This document shows, one piece after another, positions 28,967-42,797 of a stretch of DNA of 64,000 nt. How positions within the stretch are numbered: the stretch's first letter is position 1; every line of letters starts with the position of its first letter. Below the pieces are notes generated by a model. The model was not told the origin of the DNA. It saw only the letters and a program-made list of their open reading frames with translations, and made no database searches. The stretch comes from Aurantiacibacter zhengii (lineage in GTDB: Bacteria; Pseudomonadota; Alphaproteobacteria; Sphingomonadales; Sphingomonadaceae), in the NCBI RefSeq assembly GCF_003584125.1, contig NZ_QXFL01000003.1, forward strand, positions 186,001 through 250,000, read 5' to 3'. The translations under genes and the position numbers were made by a program.

Positions 28967-31150
28967 TCAGCTAATGGTGGTCAGGAACAGGGCTTCGGAG
29001 CGGTCGTGCGTGCCGATCTGGCGCACCCACAGGGAGGTGCCGGGGAATTCGGCGGCGAGTTGGCTGCGGTTGGCGGCGTCGAGGAGAAACGCAGGTTCTG
29101 CGGTTTCCCAGCTGGCGCTGGGTTTGTCCGGATCTCCCAGACCGACTTCGTACCGTTCGAACTGCTCGTTCAAGGGTACGTCGACCGCACCATCCCAGGT
29201 CCAGCTGCCGCGAGAGCGACGACGCCACGAAAGCGTCAGGCCCACGCCCTCGCGCGTTTCGACACGGGAATGGACCGGCATCAGCGGCTTGCGGCTACGG
29301 CCTGATGCAATGATCGGGGCAATCACGGGTTCGCTGTCGGCAAGCCCGATGGCAGCGATTGCCGGGCTATCGCCAATTTCGCCCGCCGCCATGGCGAGGG
29401 GCCTTTGATCGAGCAAGACGAAGTCCGCCCCCTGCGGCGTTCCTGCCATTGCGACAGGTTCGGTTCCCCCGCGACCGCGCAGTAGGCCGCCAATTCGCCA
29501 GTGTCCGCCGCCGAGGTCTTCGGCCTTGCAGAACTGAATGACCTCATTGCCGACCAGAGCCCGGTTGGCACCGTTGGCCACATTCTCCAGCGAGGCCGTG
29601 GCCAGCAGAAAGTCTGCCGAATCGAGCTTCACTTCGAGAGTGGCCAGCCGATCGACGAGACATGCCTGGCTGGGTGCAAGCGGCGAAGCCGTTACGCCGG
29701 TCACGCTGCGCCGCGTGCCGGTTCCGCCGATGGGGACGAGGCTGTCGTTGCGCTCTGCATAAAGCGTGGCCCCCGTCCAGCCGTCACTGGCGGAACTGGG
29801 AGCCGCGAAAATTTGTCGTTGGTCAGCCGAACCCTGGCCGTCCCACGGCAGTTCGAAAGCACGAAGCGTGGTGGGGGTAGCGACCTTGTCCCTCGGCGTT
29901 GCGGACACACCTGCATCGGTGGTCACATGCGCGCCGCGAAGGTAGGGCAGGCGCAACAATTCCAGTTCGAGGCCGTTCTCGCGCCATTCCCACGCCTCGA
30001 TCCGCCAGGTCCCGCTTCGACCCGGCACCGAAACGATCTTTCCGGGCCCGATGGCAGGATCCAGTTGCGCGACGCGGTACGCGAGGCGCTCCTGCGACCA
30101 ACCGGCGCGCTCTGCCGCGTCGTCGGCCAGCTTGCGCGCCTTTGCCGCGACAAGCGCTCCGGGAAATTCCAGTATCCTGTTGCGGCCTGCCTGCGCCTTG
30201 CCCCCGGCACGCTGCAGACCGGCCTGATAGTCGCGCTCCACGTCGTAATAGCGCAGGCCGGACGGGATTTCCGCCCCATCGGCGCGGGTCTGCCGGGCCC
30301 GGCCCGATGTGGCACCAAAGCCTTCGCGCGATAGGTCTACCGCGGCTTCGGGCAGCTGGATAACCGGCTGGGCCGAAGGGTGGCCATCGAAGAAAGCCAG
30401 CCGCGCTCCGCTGGCATCGCAGGCCAGCGGATAGAGCCAACCGACCGAATCGAGCACGGACTGGAGCGGCCCGCCGGTGTCCGAATAGCCCTGAAGGTCG
30501 GCAAGTGGACGGTCCACGCTGCTCTCGTCATCGGCAGGAGCCAGAATTGCCTGTAGCGACACCTCTCCGTCGTCCGCCACGATCTCAAACGTAAGGGCTG
30601 AAATGCGATTGCCGAAGTCGCCCAGTTGCAGGTCCTCGAACACGCAATAGGCGAGCCCCCGGAAAGCCGGGCATTGTGCGCCCCTGTCAGCGGCAATCAG
30701 CGGATCGGGCTGTTGGTCGCCATGCCCGGAATGGAAACGGAACGTGCCGCCCACTTTCAGGTCTCCCGCCGCACCGCGAAGCAGGTTGCCATCGGCCCAG
30801 ATACGCCGGACCATGGTGATAGGCCTGCTCGCCAGGGCAACGGCAAACGAGGTGGAATAACTGTAGGTCGTGACCGAGGGACTGCCTTTGCCGCCGCCAG
30901 CTTCTTCGCTGCTTTCGACAAGGTCGGTTGCCCAGATGATCGAGCCGGGCGCGCGCATGGTGCCGAAATGGCGCGGAACCGCCGTGCCGTAGCTGGACGT
31001 AGTGACGCTGAGTTCCTGCAGGCGCGGGCCCTCGCGACCGGGCGAGCCGAACAGCGCGCCGTCGATCTGGCTGCCGAGCAGCGAGCCCAGCGCGCCGCCG
31101 AGCGGCCCGCCGATGGCGGTGCCGACGGCGGTAAGTACGAGAGTAGCCAT
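28967..31150 (-). CDS. GTA gp15-like baseplate/tail-fibre protein, short form
   Basis: 727 residues. The N-terminus has a glycine-rich hydrophobic start (LVLTAVGTAIGGPLGGALGS), then the conserved RHFGTMRAPGSIIWATDLVES strand and PITMVRRIWADGNLL. The middle and C-terminal parts resemble the phage-tail domains of RcGTA gp15 (GNEVIQFCKAEDLGGGHWRI, GLLRGRGGTE). RcGTA gp15 is about 1300 residues and carries a TIM-barrel domain; that domain is missing here and a barrel-like domain is found instead on gp12. The start follows a 10-base gap after gp14. Confidence 0.88.
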   Translation of the reverse strand: MATLVLTAVGTAIGGPLGGALGSLLGSQIDGALFGSPGREGPRLQELSVTTSSYGTAVPRHFGTMRAPGSIIWATDLVESSEEAGGGKGSPSVTTYSYSTSFAVALASRPITMVRRIWADGNLLRGAAGDLKVGGTFRFHSGHGDQQPDPLIAADRGAQCPAFRGLAYCVFEDLQLGDFGNRISALTFEIVADDGEVSLQAILAPADDESSVDRPLADLQGYSDTGGPLQSVLDSVGWLYPLACDASGARLAFFDGHPSAQPVIQLPEAAVDLSREGFGATSGRARQTRADGAEIPSGLRYYDVERDYQAGLQRAGGKAQAGRNRILEFPGALVAAKARKLADDAAERAGWSQERLAYRVAQLDPAIGPGKIVSVPGRSGTWRIEAWEWRENGLELELLRLPYLRGAHVTTDAGVSATPRDKVATPTTLRAFELPWDGQGSADQRQIFAAPSSASDGWTGATLYAERNDSLVPIGGTGTRRSVTGVTASPLAPSQACLVDRLATLEVKLDSADFLLATASLENVANGANRALVGNEVIQFCKAEDLGGGHWRIGGLLRGRGGTEPVAMAGTPQGADFVLLDQRPLAMAAGEIGDSPAIAAIGLADSEPVIAPIIASGRSRKPLMPVHSRVETREGVGLTLSWRRRSRGSWTWDGAVDVPLNEQFERYEVGLGDPDKPSASWETAEPAFLLDAANRSQLAAEFPGTSLWVRQIGTHDRSEALFLTTIS

Positions 31151-31160
31151 GGGGTTTCCT

Positions 31161-31568
31161 TCAGTTCTCGATCAGGTTCCAGCGGGCCTGGACGGGCCAA
31201 GGCAACGGTGCAGGGCTTTCAACGACGCGGCCAAGGCCGGCATGGGCGTGCACGAGCAGGCCGGAGGGGCCGATGATCGCAAGGTGGTATTGCGCGGCAG
31301 ATGGGCGCAGCAGGACGACGTCTCCGGGCGCTGGGTCGGCTCGGCTGGGTACGAGACCAACCTGGGGAAGCAATTCCAGGAAGCGGGCGCAGCTTGCATT
31401 GCGCATCGCGTAATGCGGCAGTGTCGGCGGAGTGCGACCGGCGCGGGCGAGTGCAGAAGCCACTAGGCCGATGCAGTCGAGCCCCGTTTGCGGATCGCGC
31501 CCGCGCAGCCGGAAAGGCGCGCCGACAAGTTCGCTGGCCGCGCGGGCCAGCGCCTGCGCCGCAGTCAC
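31161..31568 (-). CDS. GTA gp14, NlpC/P60-type cell-wall peptidase
   Basis: 135 residues from a GTG that overlaps the gp13 stop (GTGA); a longer frame reaching 31682 runs inside gp13 and is rejected. The catalytic cysteine lies in TGLDCIGLVASAL (about 28-40) and the histidine in AAQYHLAIIG (about 93-102). In RcGTA this enzyme belongs to the tail tip and probably cuts the peptidoglycan of the recipient. Confidence 0.88.
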   Translation of the reverse strand: MTAAQALARAASELVGAPFRLRGRDPQTGLDCIGLVASALARAGRTPPTLPHYAMRNASCARFLELLPQVGLVPSRADPAPGDVVLLRPSAAQYHLAIIGPSGLLVHAHAGLGRVVESPAPLPWPVQARWNLIEN

Positions 31569-32389
31569 GATGCGCTGGTGGGATAGCGGGTCAACAGGTC
31601 GTTGCCCGGCAGGAACGGCTCCCCCTGGAAATTGGCAGCATTGCCGAAGCGGCTGGCGCAGGTGCTCACCGTATGGTCGCACCCCTCCCGCAGGTACGCG
31701 CGCTGCCCGCTTTCCAGCAGGTTGGCAGCGATGGACTGGTCGAGGACCAGCGCGCCGCCCTGAACGTCGACCACGCGCATGGTGATGCCGGCATGGGCCC
31801 CGTCGATCCAGCGCACCTGTCCGTGGAGGAAAGCGGCTGCCGCGGCGCCAGCATCGAAGGTTATACTGTTGGCATCGGCATTCACGGCGGAGATCTTCGC
31901 GATGCGGGTGAATGACGCCGGGTTCAGCCTGCAGGCCGCATCGCAGAAGGCGGCGCGGCAGGTGGGGCTGGTGCGCGGTACGAAGTCCTGTTCCAGCGCG
32001 GCCTTGGCGGAGCGCAATTCAGCGGTGAAGCCGTGATCTTCGGCAGAGACATTGCCAAGCGTGCCCTGGAACAGGCTGGAATAGGAAAGGCTTTCCCAGT
32101 CGACCAGGCCAATCGTCACGCGGGCCTCGGCATAGCGGCCGTCCTCGAGATCTGACTCCGCGATTGCGTCATGAGCGAGGATGCCCTGCACCTCGACGCT
32201 GTCACGCTCCAGCCGCGCCGTGCGGCGAATGGCGGAAGGGAGCATGCCGGGTGCCGCAAGATGGGTGATTCCCTCGAACGTCAGGGGGCGATTGTGGCTG
32301 GTAAAGGCCAGCGTCACCCCGTCGCGGCGCATGATGCGCCAATATGTGGCAACGCCTTCCAGCTCGCTGGCGAAGAAGACCGCGCTCAT
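31565..32389 (-). CDS. GTA gp13, tail hub protein (DUF2163)
   Basis: 274 residues. It begins with an N-terminal DUF2163 domain (WRIMRRDGVTLAFTSHNRPL, about 17-36) and has the C-terminal phage_BR0599 pattern GCDHTVSTCASRFGNAANFQ (about 232-251). Cysteines at about 145, 150, 154 plus the late C-x6-C pair could bind a metal cluster, as reported for the RcGTA hub; that is a parallel, not proven here. The start ATG overlaps the gp12 stop by 4 bases. Confidence 0.9.
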   Translation of the reverse strand: MSAVFFASELEGVATYWRIMRRDGVTLAFTSHNRPLTFEGITHLAAPGMLPSAIRRTARLERDSVEVQGILAHDAIAESDLEDGRYAEARVTIGLVDWESLSYSSLFQGTLGNVSAEDHGFTAELRSAKAALEQDFVPRTSPTCRAAFCDAACRLNPASFTRIAKISAVNADANSITFDAGAAAAAFLHGQVRWIDGAHAGITMRVVDVQGGALVLDQSIAANLLESGQRAYLREGCDHTVSTCASRFGNAANFQGEPFLPGNDLLTRYPTSAS

Positions 32390-34704
32390 ATGTCCTCGCG
32401 CACTTCGATCAGCGGTACCGAGGGCGCTTCGCCCGCGGCAAAGGTCGAGCCGGAAATGTCCAGCCTGTCCTGCGCGAACCGCACGGGAACATCGAAGAGG
32501 AAGCCTGCCCGCACTTCGGCCCCTTCGGGTGGGGCATCGGTCAGCACCACGCGCCCGCCGGGTTGCAAAGTCCAGTCCGTCGTCTCGGCACCGTCCACGC
32601 TGACGCGGATTGTTTCGGCGCGGGGGCGGGTGATCGGGCGCACCTGCGGATCGTCGCCCGCACCATAGGATTTCGACAGGCGGAACGTCGCGGCAAGGCC
32701 ATCGCCTATACCGATAAGCTGGTCAGTCGGCGTGGGGTTGCCAGTGAGGCCGTTGGAACTGAAGTCGAACGGGTCTGCCAGGCGGAAGCCGCGTGCTGGG
32801 CCGCGCCGGGCGCGGAAGAATTGCAGCAACACTCCCAACTCTGCTTCGGACCTGAGACCGGGCCCGACATCGTAATGCATGCGCGCATCGCCCCACTGGC
32901 TGTTGCGCCGCTCGAAACCGGATGCGGTGAGTGAAATCGAGGTGGAAAATTCGGGGCTGGCGGCCGTGTCGCGCCCTAGCGCCAGCGGATAGAGTACATC
33001 GTCGAAAGCTTGCAATTGGTCCTCCTGTGACTTGGGCAGGCGCACGTAACCGTCGCGCAGTACCTGGGGCATGGCCCACACGAACTGGCGCGCGACGCCG
33101 CGGGCGGCGGCTTCATCCACGCCGTCGTCGATCAGCTGCCAGAAACGCTCGGCATCGGCGGGGTCGAGCACGAAGCCGGAAAGGTAGTCCTGCAATTGGG
33201 TCGGGTAATTCAGGCGCTGCTGCACTTCGGCGTAGGCCTTCAGCCGCCGCGCTTCTGCACGGCCTGTCAGCCAGTCGTAGTCCTCGAGTTGAAGCCGGTC
33301 ATAGGCGGGGTAGGCCCAATCGGTTGGCATGTTGGCGCGGCGCAACTCGGGCCATTTCGGATCGAGCACGGTGGGCGTGAACACCAGCAGGTAGACCTGC
33401 GCATCGCCGCCCGCAGCCCCTTGCACGGTATCGCGTAGCGTCCTTGTGGCCGAAGCCAGGCGCCCTCCCGCCCAGTCGAGGTGGGCGAGCTGCTCTGCGC
33501 TCAGCGGCACGGTCAGGTCCGGGATCTCGGGTGCATCGGGGAAGAACCGCCGCACGTTTTCGTCGTAGACACACAACTTGCCGTCGGGCGTCACCCACCA
33601 CCACGGCTCGCCAATCTGGAAATGCACCGGCAAGCCTGCTGCCATGACTTGCTCGACCAGAGTCGCCGCAGTCCGGCGCAGGAAATACATGGCGCTTCCC
33701 GACAGCGGAGATAGCAGCGTCGAAGGCGGATCCCATCCGGTCAATGCCAGTTCGCCCTCGTAGGTGCGTTGGCCCCACTCGGGAGGGCAATGCGCGGCGA
33801 ACAGTTCGAACGAGAGAGAGACGATAGGCTGGAAGCCAAATTCCACGCAGCGGGCGAAGAAATCCTCGTGCCAGGCAATGCACGGCTGGCAAAGTTCGCC
33901 GCCGGGCTCGGCCTGCAGGCCCCCCGGTTTGCGGGCGAGCCGGTAGTAGTGGCTCATGCCTACATAATGGACCAGCGCATCGCGGTAGCCCATCTGCATG
34001 ATTGCGCGCATCATCCGCGCCGGAGTCAGGTTGTAGCTGTCGTCGTAGGCCGTACACATGCCCAGGCCATGCGGTGGCACGATCACATCGCCTATCGTCA
34101 GCATGGCGCGGTCGCCGTCGCAGTGTATCTGCGTCAGTTCGACCCAGCCGTTGGCGCGCGCCGGCAGCAGGCCCGTGGCCTCCGGGTCAAATGCGGGAGC
34201 GACCAGCGAGATGAACATCCGGTCGATCCCCGCAGGCTGCACTGCCGCTCCGTCAGCCTGCCAGCCTTCCCGCAATTCCGAGAATGGCAGCGTGACCGTT
34301 GCATCCTGTGCGGTGCCGACAGCATAGTTCCACAGCCGCACATACCAGCTGCGCGCGTTGCCCGAAGCGTCGCGGCCCTCGATTGTAAGGGTAGGGCCAT
34401 GCACCGCATCCAGCGGCAGCACCCCTTCGCTGCGCCAGCGAAACGACAGCGTCGTGCGCGAATAATCCCGGTCGGTATCGTAGGACAGAAGCGGGTGGTC
34501 GAACCGGTCCTCGCTTTCCCAGATCAGCCCCACCAACCCATTGCCAAGTTGCAGTTCGAGGTCGACACGTAGCGAGTCCGGCCCGGTCGTGACGACCGAG
34601 GCCATGTCCCCGCGCGGGAAGTCGATGGTCCAGAAACGCGGATCGAAACGCTGGACATAATCGGTGTCCTGCCCGGTGCGTGTCCGGGCGAGCCAGTAGG
34701 CCAT
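32386..34704 (-). CDS. GTA gp12-like tail protein with a large N-terminal TIM-barrel-like extension
   Basis: 772 residues, against about 210 for RcGTA gp12. The last 204 residues are a typical DUF2460/TIGR02217 distal tail domain (SEFSTSISLTASGFERRNSQ region, then FFRARRGPARGFRLADPFDF). The first 565 or so residues are extra: a beta-sandwich-like part (about 1-210), then a stretch that looks like a glycoside-hydrolase-type barrel (about 215-550), including MSHYYRLARKPGGL, EPWWWVTPDGKLCVYDENVR and DWLTGRAEARRLKAYAE. The glutamate in QIGEPWWW is a candidate active-site residue. It starts 12 bases after the tape-measure gene. Confidence 0.85.
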   Translation of the reverse strand: MAYWLARTRTGQDTDYVQRFDPRFWTIDFPRGDMASVVTTGPDSLRVDLELQLGNGLVGLIWESEDRFDHPLLSYDTDRDYSRTTLSFRWRSEGVLPLDAVHGPTLTIEGRDASGNARSWYVRLWNYAVGTAQDATVTLPFSELREGWQADGAAVQPAGIDRMFISLVAPAFDPEATGLLPARANGWVELTQIHCDGDRAMLTIGDVIVPPHGLGMCTAYDDSYNLTPARMMRAIMQMGYRDALVHYVGMSHYYRLARKPGGLQAEPGGELCQPCIAWHEDFFARCVEFGFQPIVSLSFELFAAHCPPEWGQRTYEGELALTGWDPPSTLLSPLSGSAMYFLRRTAATLVEQVMAAGLPVHFQIGEPWWWVTPDGKLCVYDENVRRFFPDAPEIPDLTVPLSAEQLAHLDWAGGRLASATRTLRDTVQGAAGGDAQVYLLVFTPTVLDPKWPELRRANMPTDWAYPAYDRLQLEDYDWLTGRAEARRLKAYAEVQQRLNYPTQLQDYLSGFVLDPADAERFWQLIDDGVDEAAARGVARQFVWAMPQVLRDGYVRLPKSQEDQLQAFDDVLYPLALGRDTAASPEFSTSISLTASGFERRNSQWGDARMHYDVGPGLRSEAELGVLLQFFRARRGPARGFRLADPFDFSSNGLTGNPTPTDQLIGIGDGLAATFRLSKSYGAGDDPQVRPITRPRAETIRVSVDGAETTDWTLQPGGRVVLTDAPPEGAEVRAGFLFDVPVRFAQDRLDISGSTFAAGEAPSVPLIEVREDI

Positions 34705-34716
34705 CTCGGGTCTCCC

Positions 34717-35301
34717 TCAACCTTCCCGCATCGCGCGGGCGACCGCGCTGGCAACCTGGCGGGATGAACGCTGCAACATCACCGGCGCGTCGGTGCCGCG
34801 CGGCGCAGAAAGGTTGATCGATACGCGCACATCTCTCGATCCACCGGGCTGCGAGAGCCCCGCTTCGACCCGGCCCGCGCTGGTAGGCACGAATAGTTCC
34901 GGCCCACGCTCGCCCACAAGGTAAGCGCTGCCGGGTGCCACAGGTCCGCCGGTGGCACGCCCCGGCAAACCGAAGACCGAACCGATCACGCCGTTGAGCA
35001 GCGAGCCGAGGCCGCTGGCTCCGCCTTCCCTGCCGTTGCCGAACAGATGCGCGATGCCCGACTGCACGGCCTGTGCGGCAATCTGGTTCAGCGCATCGAA
35101 GGCCACGTCCTTCAGTTCGTCGAAGCCCAGCTTGCCGCGCCGGATGGCGGACAGCAGCCCGCGCTCCAGCACGTTGCCTGCACGGGAAAAGCCATCGAGT
35201 AGCGAGGTGTCGAGGCTGGTGCGCATCGATTCCACATCGGCGCGAAAGCCGCTGGTGCTGGCGCGCACGTCGACCATCAGGGTTTCCACGGTGTCATCCA
35301 T
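34717..35301 (-). CDS. GTA gp11, short tail tape-measure protein
   Basis: 194 residues, similar to the short RcGTA protein (about 219). It opens with TLMVDVRASTSGFRADVESM, a tape-measure start, has FDALNQIAAQAVQSGIAHLF (about 68-87), a glycine-rich turn, and the frequent ATGGPVAPGSAYLVGERGPE (about 116-135) with the GERGPEL signature of phage tape-measure proteins. The short length predicts a short tail. It overlaps the upstream chaperone gene by 8 bases. Confidence 0.9.
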   Translation of the reverse strand: MDDTVETLMVDVRASTSGFRADVESMRTSLDTSLLDGFSRAGNVLERGLLSAIRRGKLGFDELKDVAFDALNQIAAQAVQSGIAHLFGNGREGGASGLGSLLNGVIGSVFGLPGRATGGPVAPGSAYLVGERGPELFVPTSAGRVEAGLSQPGGSRDVRVSINLSAPRGTDAPVMLQRSSRQVASAVARAMREG

Positions 35302-35512
35302 TGCTGTCTTGCTCCAGGAGACGGTCGAGGTCGGCGCGGCTCATGCCGTCCGCCTGGCCATCGGGGGTTTCGAAAATGCTGGCGAACTCGCGCGGCGTGG
35401 TTTGCCAGAACCAGTGCGGCGGCCAGCCGAAGAGGCGTGCGGCCACACCAGCAAGGCGGCGGGCATGGTCGCCAAAGCGCTTCCGCTCGTCCTGAGCCTG
35501 TCGAAGGGTCAT
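35294..35512 (-). CDS. GTA tail assembly chaperone (gp10.1-like, DUF2376)
   Basis: 72 residues from an ATG that overlaps the gp10 stop (ATGA). The segment FGWPPHWFWQTTPREFASIF (about 28-47) is the core of the small phage tail-assembly chaperone seen in GTA clusters. Its first codons (MTLRQAQDER) are encoded by a dispersed sphingomonad DNA repeat, so the true ancestral N-terminus may have been replaced. No better start is available. Confidence 0.8.
   Translation of the reverse strand: MTLRQAQDERKRFGDHARRLAGVAARLFGWPPHWFWQTTPREFASIFETPDGQADGMSRADLDRLLEQDSNG
35483..35508 (-). repeat. Dispersed repeat CTTCGACAGGCTCAGGACGA inside a GTA gene
   Basis: On the minus strand the bases read CCCTTCGACAGGCTCAGG then ACGAGCGG, the sequence of a very abundant intergenic repeat of sphingomonads and other bacteria, familiar from spurious peptides such as LRQAQDER and LSLSKG. 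Here it lies in frame at the 5' end of the chaperone gene. No second copy was found in this window. Confidence 0.75.
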
Positions 35513-35823
35513 GTCCGGCCTTGCAGGATTTGCTTTAGCAGTTCGCGTAAAGGTGCAGACGCGCCGGCGAGGCCCAGGGCCATCACCGCTTCGCCCACTG
35601 CCTCGCGCGGCACGCGCTCGCGCTCTGCGCAGCAATGCCAGAACAGACCGGCGATTTCCGCCAGCCGAAGCTGCCCTTCGCTGGCCCGTTCGACCAGGGC
35701 GAACAGCGGGCCGAGTTCCTCTTCTGCGGCAACAAGCGCGCTGAAAGTGGGGCGCAGCACACGCACCTGCCCAGCGACGACCAGCGCGGTCTCGCCGCGT
35801 TCGGGATTGGCTGGATCGATCAT
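35509..35823 (-). CDS. GTA gp10 family protein
   Basis: 104 residues: PERGETALVVAGQVRVLRPT, then FSALVAAEEELGPLFALVER and LFWHCCAERERVP. This is the conserved GTA-family tail chaperone-like protein (Phage_TAC_11 type) placed between major tail protein and gp10.1. It overlaps the major tail gene by 4 bases at its start and the next gene by 4 at its end. Confidence 0.88.
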   Translation of the reverse strand: MIDPANPERGETALVVAGQVRVLRPTFSALVAAEEELGPLFALVERASEGQLRLAEIAGLFWHCCAERERVPREAVGEAVMALGLAGASAPLRELLKQILQGRT

Positions 35824-36227
35824 GCCGGGACCACGGCCCCCGAGCTTTCCAGCTGCAGCGTGTAATTGCGCTCGCCGTTGAAATCGCCGGCGTAATCGAG
35901 CCGCTGGACCAGGAAGCGACCGCGCAGCTTTGCACCGTCCTCGAAGGACAGTTCGAAATCCTCGATCGTACCGGCCAGGGCATGGGCGCGGATGGCCGCC
36001 TCTGCATCGCTGCCAAGGAATATGCCTGCCGCGCTGACCGAAACGGAGCGCGTGCCAGCGCCCGAGAGCAAGTCGCGCCAGCCGCCGGACTGCTTGTGAG
36101 TCACCACCACGGCATCCCCGTTGATGGACATTTGCGTGGTGCGAAGACCGGCGACGGTTTCGTAGGTGGGGGGCTGGGCGCCGTCTCCGATCTTGAGGAG
36201 GAAGGCGCTGCCTTTCTGTGCTGTCAT
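35820..36227 (-). CDS. GTA gp9, major tail tube protein
   Basis: 135 residues. The sequence KGSAFLLKIGDG, then YETVAGLRTTQMSINGDAVV and WRDLLSGAGTRSVSVSAAGI, fits the TP901-1-type phage major tail protein, which polymerises to form the tail tube. It follows gp8 after 22 bases, with a GGAGAACC site. The length equals that of RcGTA gp9. Confidence 0.93.
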   Translation of the reverse strand: MTAQKGSAFLLKIGDGAQPPTYETVAGLRTTQMSINGDAVVVTHKQSGGWRDLLSGAGTRSVSVSAAGIFLGSDAEAAIRAHALAGTIEDFELSFEDGAKLRGRFLVQRLDYAGDFNGERNYTLQLESSGAVVPA

Positions 36228-41465: not shown

Positions 41466-42797
41466 TTATAGCGCCCGAACAGCAGGCTCACCCCTTCTTC
41501 CCAGCATCAGCTCGGTCATCGCCCACACCAGCGCGTCCGCCCTGTCCGGCGATCTCCCCGGTCCTTGGTAGCCGCCGCCGGCCATTACGCAGCACAGTTC
41601 GTCTTCCAGCAGCGGGAAGGTGCCGATGTGGTTCACGCGGCCTGCTTCGTAGAGCGCGGCGACGGGTTCGGCCCGCGCGCTCTTGCCGGTGCTGGCGTGG
41701 ACCAGTTTCAGCGGCATCTGGCAGTCGGCGGCGCGCAGCACGCTTTCCACCATCGCGCCGCCCTGGTTGGCTTCGGCCACCACGCGGTCGGCCTTCCACA
41801 CCATTGCGGCAGAGGCGACCGCGCGGGCCCAGCGTTCGGGGCTGGGGCGCTCCACGCTGGCATCGGCCAGCACCTTGGCCTGTCCGCTCTCGGTTAAAGC
41901 GCAAACCACTATCCCGCAGGCATCGCCGCGCGCGCTGGCGGGCGGGTCGACGCCGATCACGGTGCGCATGCGCTGCTCAAGGCACAAATCCTGGCGGCAC
42001 CTCTCCAGCATGGAGCGGGACCACAATGCGCCCTCGACATCGGCCAGCAGTTCGCCGTTCAGCTCCTGGCGCCCCAGGGCGGTGGAGCCGTATTGCCGCT
42101 TCATCGCGCGGATGAAGTCGGCGGGCAGGTGCTCCGCATTGTGATAGGTGCTGCCGCGCGTCACCGCGACATCGGGGTCGGTCCCGTCGCCCACCAGCCT
42201 ACGCATCAGCGGCACGGCGCGCGGGGTGGTGGTGGCGAGCACTTGCGGGCGCTCTCCCAACCGCAGACCCATCTGCAGATTATCCCAGCAAGTCATGGCG
42301 CGTTCCGAAGAATTATCCCATTTGGCGATTTCATCGCACCAGGCGTGGCTGTGCTGCGGCCCTCGCAATGATTCGGGTTCAAGCGCCGAATATAGCGTCG
42401 CCTGCGCGCCATTCGGCCAGGTCAGCCGCCGCAGGGACGGTTCGAAAACTGGCCCGTCGTCACCCGTGTGGCAAGCGAGCAGGCCGCTCTCGCCTTCCAC
42501 CATCACGCTGCGCGCCTCTCCGATGGATCGGGCGACCAGTGCGATGCGGGCGAAGGGGTCCTCCTCCGCGATGTGGCGCACCCATTCCGCCCCGGCGCGC
42601 GTCTTGCCGAAACCGCGCCCGGCGCAGATCAGCCAGACGCGCCAATTGCTTTCTGGCGGCAGCTGTTCGCTGCGGGCCCAGAACGGCCAGTAAGCCTCCA
42701 GCGTTTCCTTCTCGTCTTCCGGCAAGTGCCGCAGCAGCCTGTGCCGGTCACTGTCTTCCATATTGAAGACGAAGCGGCCCCGCTCAATCGCGTCCAT
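41466..42797 (-). CDS. terL: GTA gp2, terminase large subunit
   Basis: 443 residues. The ATPase Walker A is CAGRGFGKTRAGAEW (about 59-73) and Walker B is HSHAWCDEIAKW with the catalytic D-E (about 149-160); the coupling motif is ATTTPR. The nuclease domain starts with TVIGVDPPAS (about 282-291) and ends with SPDRADALVWAMTELML. It drives DNA packaging and, in GTAs, works without sequence preference. Its start overlaps the upstream terS-like gene by 14 bases. Confidence 0.96.
   Translation of the reverse strand: MDAIERGRFVFNMEDSDRHRLLRHLPEDEKETLEAYWPFWARSEQLPPESNWRVWLICAGRGFGKTRAGAEWVRHIAEEDPFARIALVARSIGEARSVMVEGESGLLACHTGDDGPVFEPSLRRLTWPNGAQATLYSALEPESLRGPQHSHAWCDEIAKWDNSSERAMTCWDNLQMGLRLGERPQVLATTTPRAVPLMRRLVGDGTDPDVAVTRGSTYHNAEHLPADFIRAMKRQYGSTALGRQELNGELLADVEGALWSRSMLERCRQDLCLEQRMRTVIGVDPPASARGDACGIVVCALTESGQAKVLADASVERPSPERWARAVASAAMVWKADRVVAEANQGGAMVESVLRAADCQMPLKLVHASTGKSARAEPVAALYEAGRVNHIGTFPLLEDELCCVMAGGGYQGPGRSPDRADALVWAMTELMLGRRGEPAVRAL

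Follow-up and report, generated by a model that had tools for sequence, protein, structure and literature searches.

The closest described systems to the locus analyzed here are the gene transfer agent (GTA) of Rhodobacter capsulatus (RcGTA) and the tail of phage N4. According to the accessible parts of PMC7296036, the RcGTA distal-tail protein (gp12) is a hexamer bound by the hub and by the megatron (gp15), partly at its N-terminus; the megatron is a trimer, and its peripheral domain comprises residues 230-744. What the megatron TIM barrel does is given as still unknown in the available portion of PMC13420450, a 2026 preprint on the RcGTA tailspike. In N4, the sheath is arranged six-fold round the tail, and its protein gp65 is described, in the available portions of that literature, as a receptor-binding protein.

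The two systems are treated apart in the parts of the literature examined, and the locus described below now links the N4 sheath with the GTA baseplate. In the open-access literature, as represented by titles and the starts of abstracts, we found nothing on the fusion or on a missing gp15 barrel in Sphingomonadales, and the fusion is not mentioned in the accessible parts of PMC7296036, PMC10276861, PMC12633501, PMC10925440, PMC8669472, PMC10883770, and PMC13420450. The domain itself is already known, being named in Pfam and UniProt. The reading that we favor, with moderate confidence, is that the GTAs of Sphingomonadales carry a surface-glycan module of the N4 sheath family on the N-terminus of gp12, together with a gp15 that is without the RcGTA peripheral barrel region, to which the module is unrelated.

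The GTA cluster of Aurantiacibacter zhengii

The window, a stretch of 64,000 nucleotides from A. zhengii (Sphingomonadales), contains homologues of gp11 to gp15 in RcGTA gene order (Table 1). The HK97-type portal (178.3 bits) and capsid (369.2 bits) and the tail tube (43.8 bits) of the cluster all scored above their cut-offs; the terminase match of the open reading frame (ORF) at 41466-42797 reached only 14.8/150 bits, and the rcc01693-family match of the ORF at 35294-36016 reached 16.3/56.1 bits. The gp11 homologue matched phrog_30701 at 1.2e-52 and NF058675 (the RcGTA tape measure; 220 positions) at 1.2e-5, which is far under the cut-off (25.1/220 bits). Judging by its gene order, portal, capsid, and short tape measure, the cluster appears to be an RcGTA-type GTA. 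The likeness to RcGTA (Rcc01695 and Rcc01698; PDB 6tba/6teh) extends to the DUF2460 domain of gp12 and to the N-terminal, central, and C-terminal parts of gp15. In contrast to the proteins of the window, the RcGTA gp12 chain has 210 aa and no module, and the gp15 chain has 1304 aa and a peripheral barrel domain.

Table 1. Features of the tail-gene region, in positions of the window
Feature	Position	Strand	Evidence
gp15 (megatron) homologue, 727 aa, without peripheral region	28967..31150	-	Pfam, NCBIfam, RcGTA megatron match
gp15 slot for RcGTA-type peripheral barrel region, 13 aa	30509..30547	-	comparison with tree loci
gp14 homologue, NlpC/P60 peptidase, ORF from first start codon	31161..31682	-	PF00877, 1.3e-5, 25.5 bits vs cut-off 23
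gp13 hub homologue, separate, 274 aa	31565..32389	-	PF09931, PF09356; TIGR02218
gp12 homologue, 772 aa: NCTSP_N + TIM barrel + DUF2460 distal-tail protein	32386..34704	-	Pfam, PDB sequence match, model
DUF2460 distal-tail domain, residues 568-769 of gp12 homologue	32398..33003	-	Pfam PF09343, 1.4e-70
Sheath-type TIM barrel, residues 210-553 of gp12 homologue	33046..34077	-	Pfam PF23845, 6.9e-158
E474 codon, gp12 homologue	33283..33285	-	invariance; strand at model residues 265-269
QIGEPWWW, residues 363-370 of gp12 homologue	33595..33618	-	contains invariant E366
NCTSP_N domain, residues 17-205 of gp12 homologue	34090..34656	-	Pfam PF23844, 7e-91, 303.1 bits; mostly strands in model
gp11 homologue, very short tape measure, 194 aa	34717..35301	-	NF058675, phrog_30701

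The gp12 extension and phage N4

The original prediction had recognized the lengths of the gp12 and gp15 homologues and the C-terminal distal-tail domain of the former, all of which hold (Table 1). Residues 566-769 match RcGTA gp12 (Rcc01695; PDB chain 6tba_6B) at 1.4e-43 and the distal-tail protein of phage R4C (8gtc_G) at 1.8e-34. The presence of a barrel in the N-terminal extension, proposed from sequence texture, was likewise borne out. The PF23845 match spans positions 1-348 of the 348 in the model (525.6 bits against a cut-off of 27), and the AlphaFold2 model of residues 206-562, built with 40 sequences, has a mean pLDDT of 94.0 and eight strands assigned to a beta/alpha barrel. The earlier description of the extension was nonetheless incomplete, as a second domain, NCTSP_N, lies directly N-terminal of the barrel. 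In the model of the full gp12 homologue, the DUF2460 part is poor (pLDDT <50 at residues 577-619 and 746-764), and the linker at residues 560-567 has low confidence and may therefore be flexible.

Searched against the PDB by sequence, the extension matched N4 gp64 at 3e-48 and N4 gp65, in its N-terminal part, at 1.9e-19. Foldseek placed the barrel model on N4 gp64 at 1.7e-25. Two N4 gp64 chains were the top structures among the matches listed (Z 29.9 and 28.4), the former superposing with an rmsd of 2.6 over 302 aligned residues; below them, beta-galactosidases, beta-amylases, and PgaB glycoside hydrolase domains (Z 20-23.4) made up most of the matches listed. The top five viral models among the matches listed were phage proteins, two of which bear the same domain's name. 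The barrel of the gp12 extension is a member of the phage N4 tail-sheath family (PF23845), and the extension is homologous to N4 gp64 and gp65.

The proteins of N4 (PDB 9lc0, 9yf4, 9yf5) share with the window protein NCTSP_N, the TIM barrel, QIGEPWWW, and the other conserved carboxylates, and the gp64 barrel superposes on the gp12 barrel at Z 28.4-29.9. N4 differs in being a podophage whose barrel is split between two chains, gp65 holding NCTSP_N and the first barrel segment along with many further domains and gp64 holding the rest; neither chain matches DUF2460. The free-standing proteins phi92 gp142 and Acinetobacter phage fJoAci04 gene 44 also combine NCTSP_N with the TIM barrel but have only 54 and 49 residues after it and no recognized tail-protein partner domain.

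The gp15 homologue and its variable slot

In the 727-aa gp15 homologue, Pfam found Phage-tail_3 and Rcc01698_C above their cut-offs and no PF13547, in agreement with the original prediction that this protein is without the barrel. It scored 373.8 bits against the NCBIfam megatron model NF048004 (1299 positions; cut-off, 800), falling short of a full-length megatron, and the peripheral region is missing. The N-terminal 192 residues match the RcGTA megatron, and the later parts match more weakly. Between the N-terminal and central parts lie 13 aa here, compared with 513-804 aa in the 24 barrel clusters of the tree set. Across the tree loci, this slot holds a PF13547-type barrel in those 24 and 305-510 aa without a barrel in 13, and it is almost empty in the NCTSP clusters; Tetraselmis viridis virus S20, with 41 aa between the gp15 parts and no match to either barrel, likewise has an almost empty slot. 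The barrel-less long gp15s and the barrel type have about 84 end columns of the peripheral region in common (97.5% in a profile comparison), which points to an older common part.

Other arrangements of gp15 were also seen. In L098 (5103-10517), gp15 extends over two ORFs, the first of which has a beta-propeller-like stretch after the N-terminal part. In five loci (L095, L096, L362, L363, and L364), gp12 stands separately, the two domains of gp13 are 98-281 aa apart, and the gp15 frame, 1169-1184 aa long, includes a middle region of 421-423 aa; in the one member scanned (L095), this region matched no Pfam family. A 674-aa frame in L100 (7964-9985, minus strand) contains the hub attachment domain as well as two gp15 domains, the central and the C-terminal one, and recalls T4 gp27 as compared with RcGTA in the accessible parts of PMC7296036.

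Distribution of the two barrels

Among 196 sampled genomes of Sphingomonadales, PF23845 was found in 99 and PF13547 in none, the latter search giving its match in a Caulobacter control. The genome of the window has one PF23845 match and no PF13547 match. In a sample of 289 genomes of the class, PF13547 occurred in 29 and PF23845 in 4, of which 3 belong to the window's own family. No genome among the 196 of the order and the 289 of the class contained both barrels.

DUF2460 was present in 102 of the 196 genomes of the order, namely, the 99 with the sheath barrel and three others (G021, G039, and G065). The latter are the only genomes of the order with gp15 frames longer than 1000 aa from stop to stop (two copies in G021), and their gp12 frames measure 204-232 aa with no NCTSP match. 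The C-terminal family of gp15 was found in 112/196 genomes, one below the cut-off, including 97 of the 99 with the sheath barrel, where the gp15 frames do not exceed 958 aa. Relatives in which gp12 and gp15 are both long, named earlier as evidence that would count against a transfer of the barrel, were sought in the 196 genomes, and none combined a sheath-bearing gp12 with a gp15 frame >958 aa. Fifteen gp15-positive genomes of the order have no barrel, and 12 of them also have no DUF2460; these 12 have incomplete clusters and are neutral on the long/long question.

Within the order, the module is spread over six family codes (f1, f3, f4, f6, f7, and f8) and is therefore probably old there. The gp12 gene is broken or cut in several genomes (two reading frames in G035, G140, and G072 and a stop in G010), and G144 keeps only the end of the barrel. 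These copies, together with the 12 genomes without barrel or DUF2460, indicate that the gene is not kept everywhere.

Carriers of the sheath module

The window, annotated phage loci, and scanned loci together contain at least 254 barrel-bearing ORFs, the scanned loci coming from three pattern-based scans (the best 80 loci each among the matches listed). The NCTSP_N-TIM-DUF2460 architecture accounts for at least 221 of them, a class that is overrepresented, since two of the three scans retained those loci that matched the window best. At least 7 ORFs are NCTSP_N-TIM-hub (gp13) fusions, and at least 19 have NCTSP_N-TIM without a partner recognized by profiles, including five N4 gp65-type chains and one fragment; the TIM barrel stands alone in at least 6, and at least one is a TIM-DUF2460 piece. 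Both gp15 parts lie in one ORF in at least 187 gp12-type and at least 6 gp13-type loci, with spans of up to 737 aa (the shortest, 320 aa, being incomplete), and none of these gp15s matched the gp15-barrel profile.

The gp13 type is represented by prophage-type clusters (L093, L094, L270, L275, L276, L277, L278, and L379), which have the same module as the window but fused to the hub. Their gp15 spans measure 717-737 aa in the six loci with both gp15 parts in one ORF. The separate gp12 has frames of 208-216 aa in six loci and of 489 aa from stop to stop in L276, and L275 is cut before gp12. The tape-measure frames of L276, L277, and L278 have 595-799 aa, compared with 194 aa in the window. One of these clusters, L093, lies outside the order (G352), and the genomes of L094 (G013) and L379 (G026) also have a gp12-type gene elsewhere.

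Several loci were unusual in other respects. In a decayed sphingomonad cluster (L378:6355-7197, minus strand), an NCTSP_N piece is joined to a gp13 remnant. The N4-like proteins of L263 and L272 have about 400 residues after the barrel, and in L263 a weak DUF2460 match below the cut-off (0.0058) may indicate a different distal-tail partner. The 80 IMG/VR "viral" contigs L101-L180 (~4-17 kb) resemble sphingomonad GTA clusters or pieces of them, not viruses. A 5.4-kb "Bacteriophage sp." record from human feces (L058; MT840053.1), in which the barrel extends over two overlapping frames, likewise looks like a GTA fragment.

Origin of the gp12 barrel and the short gp15

The original prediction was that the barrel had moved from gp15 to gp12. 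Literal relocation, with the gp15 barrel cut out and fused to gp12, would be consistent with a gp15 without a barrel beside a gp12 with one of similar size and with the invariant acidic residues kept in both barrel families. The two barrels belong to different Pfam families, however, and a comparison in hhalign of profiles for the module (120 sequences of the gp12 type and 27 others) and for the peripheral region of gp15 (21 sequences of the main type and 3 divergent ones) gave probabilities of 0.2-1.4%, i.e., no detectable similarity, against 100% for the positive controls (gp12-type versus other NCTSP sequences and main versus divergent gp15). For the barrel domains alone, the value was 1.3%. 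Megatron chains were not among the 50 matches listed in the fold searches of the barrel model, which excludes nothing. The nearest non-GTA relatives found are in phages and have the same N-terminal NCTSP_N, and the sheath family sits elsewhere on gp13 or is free-standing, so that a literal relocation is very improbable. The profile comparison contradicts it, and the similar sizes gained and lost are a coincidence of two different inserts. A change of carrier does occur, but inside the sheath family (gp12, gp13, and free-standing).

The order of events bears on whether anything was replaced. In an unrooted five-domain gene tree of 58 loci (L366 and L369 were skipped for missing domains), the loci with NCTSP on gp12 form one side of a branch with an SH-aLRT of 99. 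Later tree and AU runs left out L372 (long branch) and L363 and L364 (near copies). The short gp15 requires two changes on the trees found, and a single clade of all 21 short-gp15 rows was not rejected (p-AU, 0.157, or 0.646 with a simpler model). With that simpler model, the AU test on all NCTSP rows yielded 0.536. Because the tree has no root, loss and gain of the gp15 region are not separable. A module tree of 42 rows, which is quick and unrooted and took in a chosen part of the gp12-type rows (L058, L265, L274, and L277 were dropped as a fragment or near copies), has the gp13 type on one side of a branch (99). A further branch (97) sets the gp13 and gp12 types apart, with phage and viral-contig proteins on both sides, which suggests at least two separate fusions of the module; two viral-contig rows interrupt the gp12 type at unstarred support.

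The ancestral gp15 of the sphingomonad GTA could have been short; the other lineage would then have gained the peripheral region by insertion, and gp12 would have acquired the sheath module independently. We regard this course without replacement as a serious contender that falls a little short of an even chance. It agrees with the rootless gene tree, with the single short-gp15 clade that the AU test allows, and with the gp15 of Tetraselmis viridis virus S20, which is short and matches neither barrel. On the other hand, the two barrels never overlap in the 58 tree loci, and gp15 is short with gp12 carriers as well as with gp13 carriers, both of which suggest some link, although this exclusivity is no proof of exchange because the independent changes are few (five for four labels). 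The end columns shared by barrel-less long gp15s and the barrel type also speak against an insertion in the other lineage.

Conserved carboxylates and possible function

In 27 sequences that were picked without a pattern, among them those of N4 gp64, phi92, Lokivirus Shy, and an Acinetobacter phage, four carboxylates of the gp12 barrel (E300, E366, D381, and E474) do not vary. Among the matches listed, E300 and D381, neither of them part of a scan pattern, are also invariant in 252/252 barrels (231 distinct), as are E366 and E474, for which this set is partly preselected because both residues lie inside the patterns used to fetch loci. The glutamate of QIGEPWWW (E366), singled out earlier for a conservation check, thus proved invariant in both sets. 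By our own strand count in the model, E300, E366, and E474 are placed at the ends of strands 3, 4, and 6 or immediately beyond them, with E366 directly after the fourth strand and E474 the last residue of the sixth. In clan GH-A, the acid/base glutamate follows strand 4 and the nucleophile glutamate follows strand 7. By the same count, the two glutamates E366 and E474 of the gp12 barrel are at strands 4 and 6, which speaks against the enzymatic reading. The model and the conserved residues nevertheless suggest a glycosidase-like active site.

In the parts of the literature examined, no NCTSP barrel is credited with enzyme activity. The main rival to an enzymatic role is binding, since N4 gp65 is described as a receptor-binding protein: the module may be a receptor-binding or structural sheath element, with an inactive glycosidase fold that binds a glycan or an outer-membrane protein. 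We consider this somewhat doubtful. In the available portions of the N4 literature, gp65 is a receptor-binding sheath protein that binds NfrA, and the split of the N4 barrel between two chains would also fit such a role. Invariance of the four carboxylates across carriers and hosts, however, is more than a variable receptor surface should need.

Under the favored reading of an N4-type glycan module on gp12, fusion to the N-terminus would put six modules round the junction of the distal-tail protein, hub, and megatron. As gp12 is a hexameric ring in RcGTA, each sphingomonad GTA tail probably has six copies, their position being carried over from RcGTA, and the six barrels would surround the tail end on short flexible linkers, as opposed to three on a trimeric megatron. 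With the four carboxylates near their mouths, the barrels would bind, and probably cleave, a cell-surface or extracellular polysaccharide. The module may thereby help the particle through the glycan layer, after which the hub and gp15 would engage the outer membrane. With the megatron barrel in none of the 196 genomes of the order and an unrelated glycosidase-like barrel in 99, these genomes offer a natural comparison for the role of such barrels in GTA uptake.

A broader reading, which we put forward tentatively and believe rather less than we doubt, is that GTA baseplates need one glycan module per tail tip and that unrelated modules are interchangeable at different addresses, six sheath-type enzymes on the distal-tail ring of the Sphingomonadales GTA standing against the three hub-borne barrels of RcGTA. 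The interchangeable modules would be the PF13547 barrel, a beta-propeller, or a region of 305-510 aa on gp15 or the N4-sheath module on gp12 or gp13.

Annotation of short distal-tail proteins

The glycoside hydrolase label also appears where the barrel is missing. The short distal-tail proteins of three phages (L382:5037-5639, L383:6960-7580, and L384:6499-7107) are annotated as "(putative) glycoside hydrolase," and PHROG 2913, a family with that label, is confined in its match to the DUF2460 part of the gp12 homologue. According to the accessible parts of PMC10276861, the R4C distal-tail protein was linked with glycoside hydrolases by PSI-BLAST and Pfam. This link likely stems from fusions like the gp12 homologue of the window, and the label on the short distal-tail proteins has perhaps been carried over from barrel-fused relatives.
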